This document shows positions 36,680-43,966 of a stretch of DNA of 64,000 nt, piece by piece. The notes under the pieces were generated by a model. The model was not told the origin of the DNA. It did no database searches and saw only the letters and a program-made list of their open reading frames with translations. Position numbers and translations under genes: made by a program. Origin of the DNA: Thermococcus bergensis (lineage in GTDB: Archaea > Methanobacteriota_B > Thermococci > Thermococcales > Thermococcaceae); NCBI RefSeq assembly GCF_020386975.1, contig NZ_JABFNK010000005.1, forward strand, positions 992,001-1,056,000. The letters run 5' to 3'. Numbering within the stretch: the stretch's first letter is position 1; every line of letters begins with the position of its first letter.

Positions 36680-39600
36680 TCAGCTCTCGACTTTCTCAAT
36701 TCCTATCTTTGCCTCAACTTCCGGCCACTCGACAACGTATCCCTTTGCTTCCTCGAACCTAACCTCAACTGCCCTTGTTTCTCCCTTTATGTAGTCAAGC
36801 ATATTCTGCAAGAGCTCTTTGTTTTCTTCAGTTGTTTCAATATACACCATTATCCTATCGTTGACGTCTAAATCGAGGTGCTTTCTCATTTCCTGTATCC
36901 TTCTTACGAATTCCCTCGCAAGTCCTTCCATCATGAGCTCCCTTGTGAGTGTCTTATCAACAAAGACCTTGCCGTGATCGAATTCTTCTCCAACGAGGAA
37001 GTCCGGGAGTTCTTCCTCAACTACAATGTGCTCTCTTTCGATTGTAAACTCCTTACCCTCTATCTCCACTTTCAGCTTTCCTTGCATGAGCTTCTCATAG
37101 AGCTCCCTGTCGTTTTGCTCGTCGATCCATTTTGCAATCAGCTTCGCATCTCCCTTGAAGTGAGGCCCAAGTTTAGCGAAGTTGGGCTTTACTCTTATTT
37201 CCCTCTCAACCTTGGCAACCTTGACTTCCTTAGCGTTGAGCTGGTCTTTGAGGAGGTAGTTAAGCCTTTCAACGGCTTTCTTTGTTGTTTCGTCCTCGGT
37301 CTCTATGAGTATCTGCCTCACAGGATAGCGGAGTTTTATCTTTGCCTTCTGTCTCGCCGCAGAGCCAGCTTCCACTATTTTTCTGACTATCTCCATTTCC
37401 TTTTCAAGCTCTTCATCTACCCATCTCTCGTCTTTCTTGGGCCAGTCTTCGAGGTGGACGCTCTCCTTTCCACTGAACGGTCTTATGAGGTTCTGGTAAA
37501 TTTCCTCGGTGATGTAAGGTGTAAATGGTGCCATTAATCTAAGCAGAACGTCGAACACCTTCCACAATGTCCAATAAGCGGCAAGCTTATCTGGGTCGTC
37601 TTTCTCAATCCAGAGCCTCTTCCTTATGAGCCTCACGTACCACCTGCTCAGGTCTTCTGTTACAAAGTACTCTATTGCCCTCGTTGCCCTTGTAAGGTAG
37701 AATGTCTCTATTCCATCTTCAACAGCGCTTATGAGGGTGTTTACTCTCGAAAGTATCCACCGGTCCTCCTCTCTAAACGGAAGCTCCTCTGGGTTGACTT
37801 TTGTGGGGTCGAAGTTGTCCAGGCTCATGTAGGTCGAAGCCAGGATATAAACGTTCCAGAGGATGTTGAGCATTCTCTTAACCTGCGCAAGCCCCTTCCA
37901 GCTGAACCTCAGGTTTTCCCATGGAGTTGTTGCCCAGAGCATGTAGAATCTGAATGGGTCTCTTCCTTCCTTCTGGACAACTTCCTCCGGCCTTATTATG
38001 TTACCAAGGCTCTTGCTCATTTTATCTCCCTTTTCGTCCAGAACGTAGCCGTGCATTGCAACCTTCTTGTACGGAACGGTGTCAAATGCAACAACGCTTG
38101 CCGCCTGCTGGGAGTAGAACCACTTTGTAACCTGGTCTTCTCCCTCAACTATGAAATCCGCTGGCCAAAGCCTCTCGAAGAGGTCTTTCCTTCTCGGATA
38201 GTCAAGAGAAGCCCAGCTCGCTATTCCACTGTCGAACCAAACATCGAGGACGTCTTTGACCCTCTTCATGTCTCCTCCACACTTGGGGCACTTGAGGGTC
38301 ACTGTGTCAACCCATGGCTTGTGGAGGTCTACTTCGTGAAAGTCCTTCTCTATTGGCTCCTTGCTCATCTCTTTGAGCTCATCAAAAGACCCTACTACGT
38401 GGATGTTACCGCATTCTTCACATACCCAGATTGGGAGGGGTATTCCCCAGTACCTTTGCCTTGAGATGCACCAGTCTCCGCTGTTCATGACTCCGTTGTC
38501 GTACCTTATCTTTACCCAATCTGGATACCAGGTGACGTTCTTGTCGTTTTCTTCTATTATTTTGTCTTTAACCTTGCTAATCTTTAGGAACCACTGATCT
38601 GTAGCCCTAAATATCAGCGGAGTCTTACAGCGCCAGCAGTGTGGATACTTGTGCTCTATTGTGCCAGCCTTCACAAGGAGACCCTTTTCTTTGAGATACT
38701 CTATTATCTCCGGATCAGCATCTTTAACGAACTTGCCTTCCCACTTTCCTTCGACGTACCTTCCTTCATCGTCGAGAGGTGAGTAGATTGGCAAACCGTA
38801 CTGCTTTCCTACCTCAAAGTCTTCTTCACCGTGTCCTGGAGCGGTGTGGACTAAGCCAGTACCGTCTTCGAGAGTTACATGCTCTCCCAATATTACGCGG
38901 TGAGCCCATTCGTATTTTTCTCTAAACTCCTTCTGTCTCGGGTACTCCTCCAGAAACGGATGCACATACCTTAAGCCCTCAAGTTCTTCGCCCTTGAATT
39001 CTTCCACGATTTCTCCCTTGACACCGGCTTCATGGAGAACTCTTTCAACTAATGCCTTCGCTACTATCCAGTACTCTTCCTTTCCATCGAAGGATACCCT
39101 CACTTTTGCATATTCATATTCGGGGTGAACTGTAACGGCCAAGTTAGCCGGTAAAGTCCACGGCGTTGTTGTCCAGATAAGGAGGTACTCATTTTCTTTT
39201 CCTTCTATCGGGAACTTCACGTATATGCTTGGGTCTTCCCTTATTTTGTATTCTCCCCTGACTTCGTGTTCAGCCAAAGCAGTCTCACATCTGGGACACC
39301 AGTGGAGAACCCTCTGATCCTTCTCTAAAAGTCCCTTCTCCCATGCTCTCTTTAAAGTAAACCAAGCTGATTCTATGTACTCATTCTTGATCGTCATGTA
39401 GGGGTTATCCCAGTCCATCCAAACTCCAAGCATCTTAAACTGCTCTGTCATGATTTTGAGGTTCGTTAAAGCGAACTCCTTACACTTCTTTATGAAGTTT
39501 TCAACGCCAACCTTCTCTTCTATGTCCTTCTTGTATTTCAACCCAAGGGCCTGCTCAACTTTAACCTCTATTGGCAAGCCATGCATGTCAAAGCCTGGTT

Positions 39601-39847
39601 GCCTTCTAACGTTGTAGCCCTGCATGGTTCTGAATCTTATCACCATATCCTTGATTATTTTGTTCCATGCAGTACCCAGGTGTATAGCGCCACTCACATA
39701 TGGTGGTCCATCAAGAAAATAGTAGTCCGGTCCGTTTTCTCTTGCTTTTTTCACCTTGTTGTAGACGTCATTTTCTTTCCAGAATGCTTCTATTTTTTCC
39801 TCTAAGACTTGTGGATTATACTCCCTCATCTCTGGCTCCTTTATCAT
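36680..39847 (-). CDS. ileS: Isoleucyl-tRNA synthetase
   Basis: 1055 residues, start ATG 39847 eight bases after AGGAGG. Class I synthetase: HIGH as SGAIHLGTAWNKIIKD near 52, editing domain with WTTTPWTLPANLAV near 225 and GTGLVHTAPGHGEED near 320, KMSKSLGN near 605, anticodon-binding and a C-terminal extension. The pattern GDWCISRQRYWGIPLPIW is typical of IleRS. Promoter and long leader lie at 39848-39993. Confidence 0.97.
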   Translation of the reverse strand: MIKEPEMREYNPQVLEEKIEAFWKENDVYNKVKKARENGPDYYFLDGPPYVSGAIHLGTAWNKIIKDMVIRFRTMQGYNVRRQPGFDMHGLPIEVKVEQALGLKYKKDIEEKVGVENFIKKCKEFALTNLKIMTEQFKMLGVWMDWDNPYMTIKNEYIESAWFTLKRAWEKGLLEKDQRVLHWCPRCETALAEHEVRGEYKIREDPSIYVKFPIEGKENEYLLIWTTTPWTLPANLAVTVHPEYEYAKVRVSFDGKEEYWIVAKALVERVLHEAGVKGEIVEEFKGEELEGLRYVHPFLEEYPRQKEFREKYEWAHRVILGEHVTLEDGTGLVHTAPGHGEEDFEVGKQYGLPIYSPLDDEGRYVEGKWEGKFVKDADPEIIEYLKEKGLLVKAGTIEHKYPHCWRCKTPLIFRATDQWFLKISKVKDKIIEENDKNVTWYPDWVKIRYDNGVMNSGDWCISRQRYWGIPLPIWVCEECGNIHVVGSFDELKEMSKEPIEKDFHEVDLHKPWVDTVTLKCPKCGGDMKRVKDVLDVWFDSGIASWASLDYPRRKDLFERLWPADFIVEGEDQVTKWFYSQQAASVVAFDTVPYKKVAMHGYVLDEKGDKMSKSLGNIIRPEEVVQKEGRDPFRFYMLWATTPWENLRFSWKGLAQVKRMLNILWNVYILASTYMSLDNFDPTKVNPEELPFREEDRWILSRVNTLISAVEDGIETFYLTRATRAIEYFVTEDLSRWYVRLIRKRLWIEKDDPDKLAAYWTLWKVFDVLLRLMAPFTPYITEEIYQNLIRPFSGKESVHLEDWPKKDERWVDEELEKEMEIVRKIVEAGSAARQKAKIKLRYPVRQILIETEDETTKKAVERLNYLLKDQLNAKEVKVAKVEREIRVKPNFAKLGPHFKGDAKLIAKWIDEQNDRELYEKLMQGKLKVEIEGKEFTIEREHIVVEEELPDFLVGEEFDHGKVFVDKTLTRELMMEGLAREFVRRIQEMRKHLDLDVNDRIMVYIETTEENKELLQNMLDYIKGETRAVEVRFEEAKGYVVEWPEVEAKIGIEKVES

Positions 39848-39861
39848 ACCAAAAACCTCCT

Positions 39862-39993
39862 GGAATTTGTAGAATAAGCTAGATCAGCAGAATAGCCCAG
39901 GGAATCATGGGCAAAATGCACGGCGAAGGATAAAACCCTCCCCCCTCATGGGCATCGGTCAAAATTGCAGAGTTCCGTTTATAAATCTTTTGC
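39862..39993 (-). promoter_or_regulatory. ileS promoter and GC-rich leader
   Basis: On the coding strand, GCAAAAGATTTATAAAC (39993-39977) is a BRE/TATA. From the expected start (about 39952) the leader runs about 100 nt and is far more GC-rich than its surroundings: GCCCATGA occurs twice, the first in CCCATGAGGG (a 3-bp hairpin), the second in GCCCATGATTCCCTGGGC (hairpin GCCC/GGGC). It may be a structured regulatory leader or a small RNA. IS copy 2 ends its left side at 40000, 13 bp upstream of the TATA. Confidence 0.5.
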
Positions 39994-39999
39994 CAAAGA

Positions 40000-40868
40000 G
40001 GGCGTGTTTATAGTAACCTTTATTAGGGTTTTTGCTGAATTCTTTCGGGTGGTTGTCGTGATCCCCAGATGGGATCACAGACTCAAAGACCCTGAAAGCG
40101 TGGCATTCGCAATTCTTGACGTTTTAGCAGACTTCGAATCAGAAGGAAAGCTGAAGAACCTGCCAAAATCCAAAAAATTTCCAGTAAAAACAATACTGGC
40201 AATACTCCTCTTTAAACAATACTACAACCTACCTCTCAGAGACGCCCAGCACTACGGCAGAAAATTCTTCGGAGCAAACATTCACTACTCAACCCTCCAC
40301 AACTGGGAGAAAAAGCTGAACCTCGAAGAACTGACAAACCACCTCCTGAAAAAACTCCAGAAATTACCCTACGCCAGCACTCAAGCAGACTCAACCATTA
40401 TTACAAATAAAAAAAGGGCAGGATAGAAGTTCAGGCAATAACGAGAATCCTGCCGGGTTTACTGTATCCGGTTGCTGTGAAGATCACAACTTCTGAGAAC
40501 GAGCTGATTGAACTCCTGCCGGGGGGTTCTGGGAATTTTTATGCTGATGGGGCTTATGATTCAAAGAAAGTTCTGAACACTGTGGTGGAAAAGGGTTATC
40601 GGCCGATTGTTAAGAAAACTAAGAACGCTCCAGGTGGTTTTGGTAGTAAGAAGAGAGACAGAGTGTTTTCTGAAGAAGAGTACAGGCATAGGAATCCTCA
40701 TGAGGGGTTCTGGGGTGCGTTTACAACGTGGTTTGGCAGTAGGATCCCCTGTTTTCTGAAAAAGACTACTGTAACCCGAATCCTGCTTGGGGTAATGTGT
40801 TATGGTCTGAAAATCCTCCTCAGAGTCAAATACTGTTTAAATAACAGGGGGTGAAACTAAACACGCCC
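40000..40868 (+). mobile_element. Insertion sequence, IS4/IS5-superfamily, copy 2 (869 bp)
   Basis: Same terminal repeats as copy 1. Flanks TGCCAAAGA at 39991-39999 and 40869-40877 form a 9-bp target duplication. Almost identical to copy 3; small differences include CTACCTCTC here against CTACCCCTC and GGCATAGG against GGCGTAGG. Confidence 0.95.
40058..40854 (+). CDS. Transposase of IS copy 2, two frames
   Basis: As in copy 1: GTG start 40058 after AGGTGG, frame 1 to 40426, then the -1 frame to TGA 40854. The seven-A run, the following hairpin and the start-codon hairpin are unchanged. The DDE residues are intact. Confidence 0.85.
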
Positions 40869-41112: not shown

Positions 41113-41981
41113 GGGCGTGTTTATAGTAACCTTTATTAGGGTTTTTGCTGAATTCTTTCGGGTGGTTGTCGTGATCCCCAGATGGGATCACAGACTCAAA
41201 GACCCTGAAAGCGTGGCATTCGCAATTCTTGACGTTTTAGCAGACTTCGAATCAGAAGGAAAGCTGAAGAACCTGCCAAAATCCAAAAAATTTCCAGTAA
41301 AAACAATACTGGCAATACTCCTCTTTAAACAATACTACAACCTACCCCTCAGAGACGCCCAGCACTACGGCAGAAAATTCTTCGGAGCAAACATTCACTA
41401 CTCAACCCTCCACAACTGGGAGAAAAAGCTGAACCTCGAAGAACTGACAAACCACCTCCTGAAAAAACTCCAGAAATTACCCTACGCCAGCACTCAAGCA
41501 GACTCAACCATTATTACAAATAAAAAAAGGGCAGGATAGAAGTTCAGGCAATAACGAGAATCCTGCCGGGTTTACTGTATCCGGTTGCTGTGAAGATCAC
41601 AACTTCTGAGAACGAGCTGATTGAACTCCTGCCGGGGGGTTCTGGGAATTTTTATGCTGATGGGGCTTATGATTCAAAGAAAGTTCTGAACACTGTGGTG
41701 GAAAAGGGTTATCGGCCGATTGTTAAGAAAACTAAGAACGCTCCAGGTGGTTTTGGTAGTAAGAAGAGAGACAGAGTGTTTTCTGAAGAAGAGTACAGGC
41801 GTAGGAATCCTCATGAGGGGTTCTGGGGTGCGTTTACAACGTGGTTTGGCAGTAGGATCCCCTGTTTTCTGAAAAAGACTACTGTAACCCGAATCCTGCT
41901 TGGGGTAATGTGTTATGGTCTGAAAATCCTCCTCAGAGTCAAATACTGTTTAAATAACAGGGGGTGAAACTAAACACGCCC
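41113..41981 (+). mobile_element. Insertion sequence, IS4/IS5-superfamily, copy 3 (869 bp)
   Basis: Terminal repeats as in the other copies; flanks TCTCTGACCG at 41103-41112 and 41982-41991 give a 10-bp target duplication. It lies 244 bp after copy 2 in the same direction; the 137 bp between the MITE and copy 3 have no gene but include a hairpin CCCATACC/GGTATGGG at about 41065-41087. Confidence 0.95.
41171..41967 (+). CDS. Transposase of IS copy 3, two frames
   Basis: GTG 41171 after AGGTGG, frame 1 to 41539, -1 frame to TGA 41967. Seven-A run and both hairpins conserved. One amino-acid change from copy 2 in the YRxRNPHE string (YRRRN for YRHRN), leaving the Tyr, Arg and Glu of that motif. 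Confidence 0.85.
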
Positions 41982-42033: not shown

Positions 42034-42111
42034 GGGCCGGTAGCTTAGCATGGTTAGAGCGGCGGACTCTTAATCCGCAGGTCGGGGGTTCGAATCCCCC
42101 CCGGCCCGCCA
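42034..42111 (+). tRNA. tRNA-Lys (anticodon CTT), CCA encoded
   Basis: Acceptor GGGCCGG/CCGGCCC, D arm GCTT/GAGC, anticodon stem GCGGA/TCCGC with loop CTCTTAA giving CTT (Lys, AAG), T arm GGGGG TTCGAAT CCCCC, discriminator G, CCA at 42109-42111. The same acceptor as the tRNA-Lys(TTT) at 12429 supports Lys identity. Confidence 0.97.
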
Positions 42112-42190
42112 AATAGATTCCATATGCTTTTCTGGAGTGTTCCAAAAGATTTATGTATAGTGTTGCGTATAATATTATGCATGAATGAAT

Positions 42191-42214
42191 GTTAGTTTGT
42201 TAATTAAAACTAAC
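42191..42214 (+). promoter_or_regulatory. Palindromic candidate operator of the BlaI-type gene
   Basis: GTTAGTTT and AAACTAAC are perfect inverted repeats around GTTAATTA, 20 bp before the BlaI ATG and just after the expected transcription start (TATA-like TTTATGTATA near 42150). A second perfect palindrome, ATAATATTAT, lies at 42169-42178. Placement suits self-repression by the BlaI-type product. Confidence 0.6.
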
Positions 42215-42233
42215 AACTTGGAGGGAATGTTCA

Positions 42234-42599
42234 ATGCAACCTCATGAATTCAAGCTAAATGAAGACGGCCTAAAGGCCGTTCTTCCCCCAATGGAAGCCG
42301 AGATAATGGAGTATATGTGGAAAGTGAAGGTTGCAACGGCTGGAGATGTTTATGAATATCTAAAAGAGAAACATGAAACCTTAAGACGTTCTACAGTTAG
42401 CATATTAATGAACAGGCTCTGTGAGAGAGGGCTGTTAAAGAGAAGCATAGAGACGGGAAGAGGCGGAATGAGATACGTTTACAGCGTGGCTACAAGCAAA
42501 GAAGAGTTTGAGAAGAAAGTTGTTGAGAGCATTTTAAACGCTCTTATGAGCAATTTCAAGGAGGCAACCGTTGCATATCTTTCAAAAATAAAGAAGTGA
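42234..42599 (+). CDS. BlaI/MecI/CopY-family transcriptional repressor
   Basis: 121 residues after GGAGGG. Winged helix: LPPMEAEIMEYMWKVKVATAGDVYEYLKEK, then RRSTVSILMNRLCERGLLKRSIETGRGGMRYVYSV, then a dimerisation helix EFEKKVVESILNALMSNF, as in the BlaI family. The next gene, 6 bp away, is an M48 membrane protease; in bacteria BlaI partners a metalloprotease sensor of the related M56 type (BlaR1/MecR1). Signal in this archaeon unknown. Confidence 0.88.
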   Translation: MQPHEFKLNEDGLKAVLPPMEAEIMEYMWKVKVATAGDVYEYLKEKHETLRRSTVSILMNRLCERGLLKRSIETGRGGMRYVYSVATSKEEFEKKVVESILNALMSNFKEATVAYLSKIKK

Positions 42600-42605
42600 T
42601 AGCAG

Positions 42606-43388
42606 ATGCTCAGGCTTATATTTCTCGCTCAATTGGCGATTACACTGGTGTATTTGAGAAGGCTTGGCCTGCTATTTGTACTCGGGATACTCCTCGTTCT
42701 TTTTGGGTTATATTTGTGGACTATTACGAGGATCTTAAGGGGAGAGCATAGAAAGCTTTCCCCTGATGATATGCCATGGCTTTATGAAGGGATAGTAAGA
42801 ATGGCAAACAAAGCAGGGATAACAACGCCCGAAATTTATATATTGGACGACTACATACCAAATGCCTATTCTTTCAGAAATTCAATTGTGCTTTCTATGG
42901 GGCTGTTTGAAGTTCTTGATGAAGAAGAAATTCTCGCGGTTGCTGCTCATGAAATAGGCCATATAAAAAATAAAGATACCATCCTCTTTCCACTTGTTTC
43001 TTATGGGAGGTACTTCATGTTTGCGTTAGCCCTTTTGAATTCCCTGATCTCCCAGGAAGCATTAGTTTCACTGGTATCTTTCACGTTTTACCTTCTCTAC
43101 GAGGTGCTCAGGTCTGATTATTTAAAGCAGAGGGAGTTTAAAGCCGATGAAGCGGCACTACGTATAATATCCACCCCTCTAGCCCTAAAGAGGGCCCTCG
43201 AAGAACTCAAGTACTATGAGGATCTGAGAATTGAAGTTAAGGAGTCCGCATTTCCGTCTATAGAGCCTGAGATAGAAAGGCCCCATCAGAGATCGATCTT
43301 TGATACGCACCCAAGTTATGAAGAGAGAATATGGAGAATTATTGCAGAAGTTGAAGCGATGAATCTCAGGGAGAGAATTCTCAACTGA
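42606..43388 (+). CDS. M48-family membrane metalloprotease
   Basis: 260 residues. Two N-terminal membrane helices (about 2-45), zinc motif AAHEIGHIKNKD near 117-128, two central membrane segments (about 135-175), third ligand in KQREFKADEAALR near 180, and a cytosolic tail with DTHPSYEERI near 238, as in HtpX/Ste24-like proteases. Pairing with a BlaI-type repressor suggests it cleaves a regulator, perhaps BlaI itself; this is inference. Confidence 0.9.
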   Translation: MLRLIFLAQLAITLVYLRRLGLLFVLGILLVLFGLYLWTITRILRGEHRKLSPDDMPWLYEGIVRMANKAGITTPEIYILDDYIPNAYSFRNSIVLSMGLFEVLDEEEILAVAAHEIGHIKNKDTILFPLVSYGRYFMFALALLNSLISQEALVSLVSFTFYLLYEVLRSDYLKQREFKADEAALRIISTPLALKRALEELKYYEDLRIEVKESAFPSIEPEIERPHQRSIFDTHPSYEERIWRIIAEVEAMNLRERILN

Positions 43389-43435
43389 TGAAAAACTCTT
43401 TTAACCTTATTGTTTCTTTTTTATTTGGTGGTGCC

Positions 43436-43966
43436 ATGCAAGTGGAAATAGTTCTGAATAAAGAGAGAGCAGAGCACATCAAGAGAATACGCCCCACGAA
43501 AGATGAGTACTTCATGCTCATTGCAAAGCTTGTAAGTCTAAGGGCTACATGTCCAAGGCTTAGAGTGGGAGCAGTTGCCGTAAAAGACGGCTACATTCTA
43601 GCAACGGGTTATAACGGGGCTCCGAGGAATATGGATCACTGTATCGATGTGGGCTGCTTGATAGCGGATGGCCACTGTCGTAGAGCCGTACATGCGGAGC
43701 AAAACGTCATAGCGATGGCAGCCAGAAAGGGTATAAGTCTTGAAGGGGCCACACTTTATGTTACCCACTTTCCATGCGATGTCTGCTTTAAGCTCCTCGT
43801 AAACGCTGGAATCAAAGAAATAGTCTATGAAGAGATGTATCCAAATAAGGCAACTGAAATTTTGCTGAAAGAAGCCCAAGAGAAAGGGATTGTGAAAATA
43901 AGACAGTTTAAAGTCCCCAAGGAGAGGGTTAAAGTATTCCTGGAAGAGCTTTTTGGAGATGACTAA
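43436..43966 (+). CDS. dCMP deaminase family protein
   Basis: 176 residues from ATG 43436 after GGTGGTG; the longer frame from 43388 is leader. Zinc deaminase: VHAEQNVIAMAA (His, Glu) near 88 and THFPCDVCFKLLVNAG (two Cys) near 114. DHCIDVGCLIADGHC before HAE is the extra Zn/structural insertion of dCMP deaminases. Would make dUMP from dCMP. Overlaps the end of the convergent gene by 4 bp. Confidence 0.88.
   Translation: MQVEIVLNKERAEHIKRIRPTKDEYFMLIAKLVSLRATCPRLRVGAVAVKDGYILATGYNGAPRNMDHCIDVGCLIADGHCRRAVHAEQNVIAMAARKGISLEGATLYVTHFPCDVCFKLLVNAGIKEIVYEEMYPNKATEILLKEAQEKGIVKIRQFKVPKERVKVFLEELFGDD

Follow-up and report, generated by a model that had tools for sequence, protein, structure and literature searches.

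A gene for a winged-helix repressor of the BlaI/MecI/CopY type, followed directly by one that encodes an HtpX-like M48 membrane zinc metalloprotease, was identified in the 64,000-nt stretch of Thermococcus bergensis DNA analysed here (the window). As judged from the orthologous loci, this pair is real and near-universal in the Thermococcales, where it is probably an operon. It is best explained, with a probability of about one half, as an order-wide, self-repressed BlaI-M48 operon, in which the BlaI-family protein would repress its own promoter and thereby also the protease. The positions of the features discussed are collected in Table 1.

Table 1. Features of the repressor-protease region in the window, and related loci elsewhere.
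Feature	Position in the window, or loci	Strand	Basis or remarks
ileS	36680-39847	-	divergent, upstream of the repressor gene
Insertion-sequence-like ORF pair, two near-identical tandem copies	39965-40854, 41117-41967		just 5' of tRNA-Lys
tRNA-Lys(CTT)	42034-42111	+	upstream neighbour of the operon; ARAGORN, Rfam
Putative BRE/TATA element (AAAAGATTTATGTA)	42144-42157; TATA about 42150-42158	+	anchored conservation, genus alignment
Inverted repeat TGTTAGTTT-8 nt-AAACTAACA	42190-42215		arms 42190-42198 and 42207-42215
Likely ribosome-binding site (TTGGAGGG) for the repressor ORF	42218-42225	+	sequence
BlaI/MecI/CopY-type (PF03965) winged-helix repressor	42234-42599	+	121 aa; Pfam, model, orthologues
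HtpX-like M48 membrane zinc metalloprotease	42606-43388	+	260 aa; Pfam, zinc ligands, model
dCMP deaminase	43388-43966	+	PF00383 4.2e-27 (Pfam); real start probably ATG 43436
BlaI orthologue directly 5' of RFC genes, Hadarchaea and Methanofastidiosia	L156, L158, L159, L139-L142
BlaI + M48/M56 pairs, Methanofastidiosia/Theionarchaea-level relatives	L122, L124, L131, L132, L134-L136, L138
BlaI + M48/M56 pairs, Bacteria, examples	L162, L173, L204, L213
TTGTCANNNTGACAA dyad, BlaI side	L224, L226, L228, L231, L235
TTGTCANNNTGACAA dyad, glnA side	L229, L230, L233, L234
TTGTCANNNTGACAA dyad, HisZ/HisG-like side	L225, L227, L232

The repressor is encoded by 87 of the 94 Thermococcales genomes; among the 74 of good quality, 73 have it. 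The conservation analysis covered 87 loci, two of which stop at a contig edge, hence the downstream region was readable in 85. In all of these 85 the M48 gene lies directly 3' of the repressor gene, in a tight tandem on the same strand, and its active site is intact in 84 (80 scored by script and four more by inspection). The gap between both genes ranged from -4 to +15 nt in the 80 scripted cases, the commonest value being the 6 nt found also in the window between the stop side of the repressor gene (42599) and the start of the M48 gene on the same strand. Identity to the proteins of the window was 65-95% for the repressor orthologues and roughly 42-80% for those of M48, conservation being higher in the repressor than in the protease. 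Natural loss of the protease was detected at locus L084 (genome G005), in which an internal deletion takes out the HEXXH motif (HEIGH) and the repressor frame is open. The reverse state was found at L009 (G077), with an in-frame TGA in the repressor gene and an intact M48, and at L073 (G084) the repressor gene is frameshifted next to an intact M48; a sequencing error is possible in these two cases. No description of this Thermococcales unit was found in the open-access literature, outside which most subscription journals lie, and the unit is apparently undescribed so far.

The repressor ORF matched the PF03965 profile of Pfam with an E value of 1.1e-17 (64.9 bits, curated cut-off 22.6). Its structural model (pLDDT 89) had MecI (1okr and 1sd6) as top PDB matches, with BlaI (1xsd) close behind, and the predicted winged-helix fold is MecI/BlaI-like. 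The fold also matched that of Rv1846c, the BlaI of M. tuberculosis (TMq 0.60), a regulator of the BlaI type from beyond the usual staphylococcal context, although sequence group and lineage differ. The recognition region, STVSILMNRL, is near-invariant in repressors throughout the Thermococcales.

The protease ORF matched the Peptidase_M48 profile with an E value of 8.2e-23 (81.6 bits) and reached 20 bits with the M56 profile, under its curated cut-off of 31. The earlier note had proposed a repressor followed by a membrane metalloprotease, of class M48 instead of M56, and both proposals are borne out by these assignments, the former also by the recurrence of gene order and strand across the order. 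The HEIGH motif corresponds to residues 115-119 and E177 to the third zinc ligand, and H115, catalytic E116, H119, E177 and D181, the zinc ligands thereby included, were invariant in 30 aligned orthologues. Hydrophobic stretches at residues 4-44 and near 126-157 appear as predicted membrane-spanning segments. The best PDB matches of the model (pLDDT 90) were ZMPSTE24 and HtpX (3cqb), whereas BlaR1 of S. aureus was a weaker match (E 0.013), so that the modelled protease resembles HtpX/ZMPSTE24 more than BlaR1. No extra Pfam domain, including a C-terminal extracellular beta-lactam sensor, was found in its 260 residues. With HtpX, a quality-control protease, it shares the M48 domain, the HEXXH motif plus distal Glu and the N-terminal membrane segments, but it scored below every cut-off of the NCBIfam HtpX equivalogs (best 86.9 bits vs. 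341) and is linked to a BlaI-type gene. The only further M48 of the genome is a canonical-looking HtpX (C5:841309), 27% identical to the paired protease, and in the plasmid collection only distant HtpX homologues and no DNA match were detected.

Taking the BlaR1 mechanism and the M56 class as given in PMC7593790, the pair is similar to BlaI-BlaR1 and MecI-MecR1 of Staphylococcus and Bacillus in that a PF03965 repressor of MecI fold adjoins a membrane gluzincin. It differs from them in its M48/HtpX-like protease without penicillin-binding sensor, in a shorter repressor with no C-terminal helix past the point of cleavage, and in the absence of both an adjacent beta-lactamase gene and an upstream TACAnnTGTA operator.

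Within each genus, the strongest conserved element upstream of the pair was a BRE/TATA-like motif, a putative promoter element. The palindrome that the earlier note had taken for an operator sits 3' of this presumed TATA element (the transcription start is likewise a prediction); it is indeed perfect, though not of 8 bp, its arms being 9 bp long and separated by an 8-nt spacer. When aligned with 11 congeners, it was located inside roughly 20-30 nt unique to this genome; none of the 11 carries it, and it is likewise absent in the other genera. In the whole genome, its degenerate pattern with up to 3 mismatches was found 8 times, compared to 9 for the reversed control, and with fewer than 3 mismatches only the copy at 42190-42215 was recovered; about three places in the window hold an inverted repeat of this quality. 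As the recognition region is near-invariant order-wide, the true operator is expected to be conserved too, and the palindrome, private to this genome and without a second good copy, was therefore rejected as a conserved operator; from these comparisons it is unlikely to be the true binding site of the repressor. A 7-bp direct repeat, GAATGTT, lies on either side of it (42187-42193 and 42225-42231), as a possible trace of a small insertion or by chance. No match to TACAnnTGTA, the classical operator of MecI/BlaI systems, was found at one mismatch or less between 41804 and 44268. Rfam returned the tRNA as sole match, and an RNA regulator was not supported.

Another dyad, TTGTCANNNTGACAA, was present in genera g5 and g6 and is possibly the site of an amino-acid or nitrogen regulator. 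As a real operator of the pair in g5, where it is conserved, it is doubtful, because the same dyad is found upstream of glutamine synthetase and of a HisZ/HisG-like pair, and because its copy on the BlaI side lies in a stretch that BlaI has in common with a divergent UMP-kinase-like gene.

Regarding the gene neighbourhood, two insertion-sequence copies and the tRNA-Lys gene separate ileS from the repressor gene in the window, and a related insertion-sequence-like ORF pair occupies the equivalent place at L009 (G077). A gene of the dCMP deaminase family lies close by at 73 loci; its strand is that of the pair in nearly all cases, and it is usually the next gene 3' of M48, whereas in genus g2 it is divergent and upstream of BlaI. 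The genes flanking the pair are otherwise rearranged across the Thermococcales.

Outside the order, repressor orthologues of Methanofastidiosia, Theionarchaea and Hadarchaea have in common the N-terminal signature WHEYRP..G..VLxPLExEIM and lack a protease neighbour, several of them lying directly 5' of replication factor C (RFC) genes. In Hadarchaea, they are located between divergent ileS and RFC genes. These few genomes suggest that an old ileS-BlaI neighbourhood may have been joined by M48 in the Thermococcales ancestor. Other class-level relatives, Theionarchaea included, have separate BlaI copies next to M56 or M48 protease genes, and BlaI-protease pairs, M48-leaning ones among them, are common in Bacteria and occur also in other archaea. 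As in the Thermococcales, the gluzincin gene directly follows the repressor gene in these pairs, the two frequently overlapping or separated by only a few nt, but most of their repressors have an extra C-terminal helix. Among the pairs tested outside the Thermococcales, M56 was the best profile for most and M48 for L134, L202 and L213. The novelty that had been attached to such a switch in a hyperthermophile for want of beta-lactam targets was thus overstated, since BlaI-protease pairs exist in many bacteria and in Theionarchaea and some of the proteases score best as M48.

A tentative alternative to the autoregulated operon is a BlaR1-like switch, in which a membrane signal would activate M48, which would cleave and thereby inactivate the repressor and so induce the operon and any other targets. 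The tandem pairing throughout the order is in line with it, as is the frequency with which BlaI homologues precede membrane gluzincins in Bacteria and Theionarchaea. The dipeptide N107-F108 (Asn-Phe) also fits, being invariant in 85 of 85 aligned Thermococcales repressors and absent from the sister-lineage orthologues without linked protease. However, MecI N101-F102, its Asn-Phe cleavage site, fell in the multiple alignment on Y115-L116, eight residues C-terminal of N107-F108, and the helix past the cleavage site is missing; NF was aligned with NF in a pairwise alignment, but N107-F108 as a homologous MecI cleavage site is unsupported by the multiple alignment. Since most protease-linked bacterial relatives carry Asp-Phe or Glu-Phe at this position, the dipeptide is perhaps structural. 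Further points against cleavage are the HtpX-like nature of the protease, with no added sensor domain, the intact repressor of G005 beside a protease that lacks HEIGH, and the sister-lineage repressors without neighbouring protease. A switch that evolved in the Thermococcales independently of BlaR1, with an HtpX-like M48 without separate sensor domain cleaving a shortened BlaI-type repressor under membrane stress, would be an archaeal pathway of signalling by regulated proteolysis, conserved across the order; its probability is rather low.

A role of the repressor as general archaeal regulator of replication or nucleotide genes, or of itself, with an M48 acquired in the Thermococcales ancestor and merely co-transcribed, is unlikely. 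The protease-free orthologues next to RFC in Hadarchaea and Methanofastidiosia point that way, together with the ileS gene still divergent upstream in the window, the dCMP deaminase gene after M48 in most Thermococcales, and the opposite losses in G077 and G005; against this, the tight linkage is near-universal although flanking genes rearrange. Least probable would be a palindrome acting as a genuine species-specific operator or leader hairpin that rewires control in this genome. When the 122-bp upstream stretch was dinucleotide-shuffled 3000 times, about 0.6% of the outcomes contained a comparable inverted repeat, so that the palindrome is a local excess, and it could form a stable 9-bp hairpin in the 5' leader, just 5' of the ribosome-binding site (z -2). 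Yet none of the congeners has the site, despite repressors up to 95% identical with an unchanged recognition region, and a good second genomic copy is absent.

In the autoregulated operon, the operator would probably overlap or adjoin the BRE/TATA element instead of the palindrome, and membrane or protein-folding stress may act as inducer, relieving the repression. As no conserved operator dyad common to several genera was found upstream, autorepression is a step that we infer. The better conservation of the repressor compared to the protease, together with its protease-free sister-lineage orthologues, suggests that it may have further targets besides M48. The output would likely be an adjustable quality control of membrane proteins, beside the separately encoded canonical HtpX. 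The pair is directly testable, as hosts with working genetics are available (T. kodakarensis and P. furiosus). Were the pair to signal by proteolysis, archaea would possess their own equivalent of BlaI-BlaR1, kept order-wide and sensing through a protease of the quality-control type; as no more than an autoregulated operon, the pair would still be an apparently undescribed and near-universal regulatory unit of the Thermococcales.
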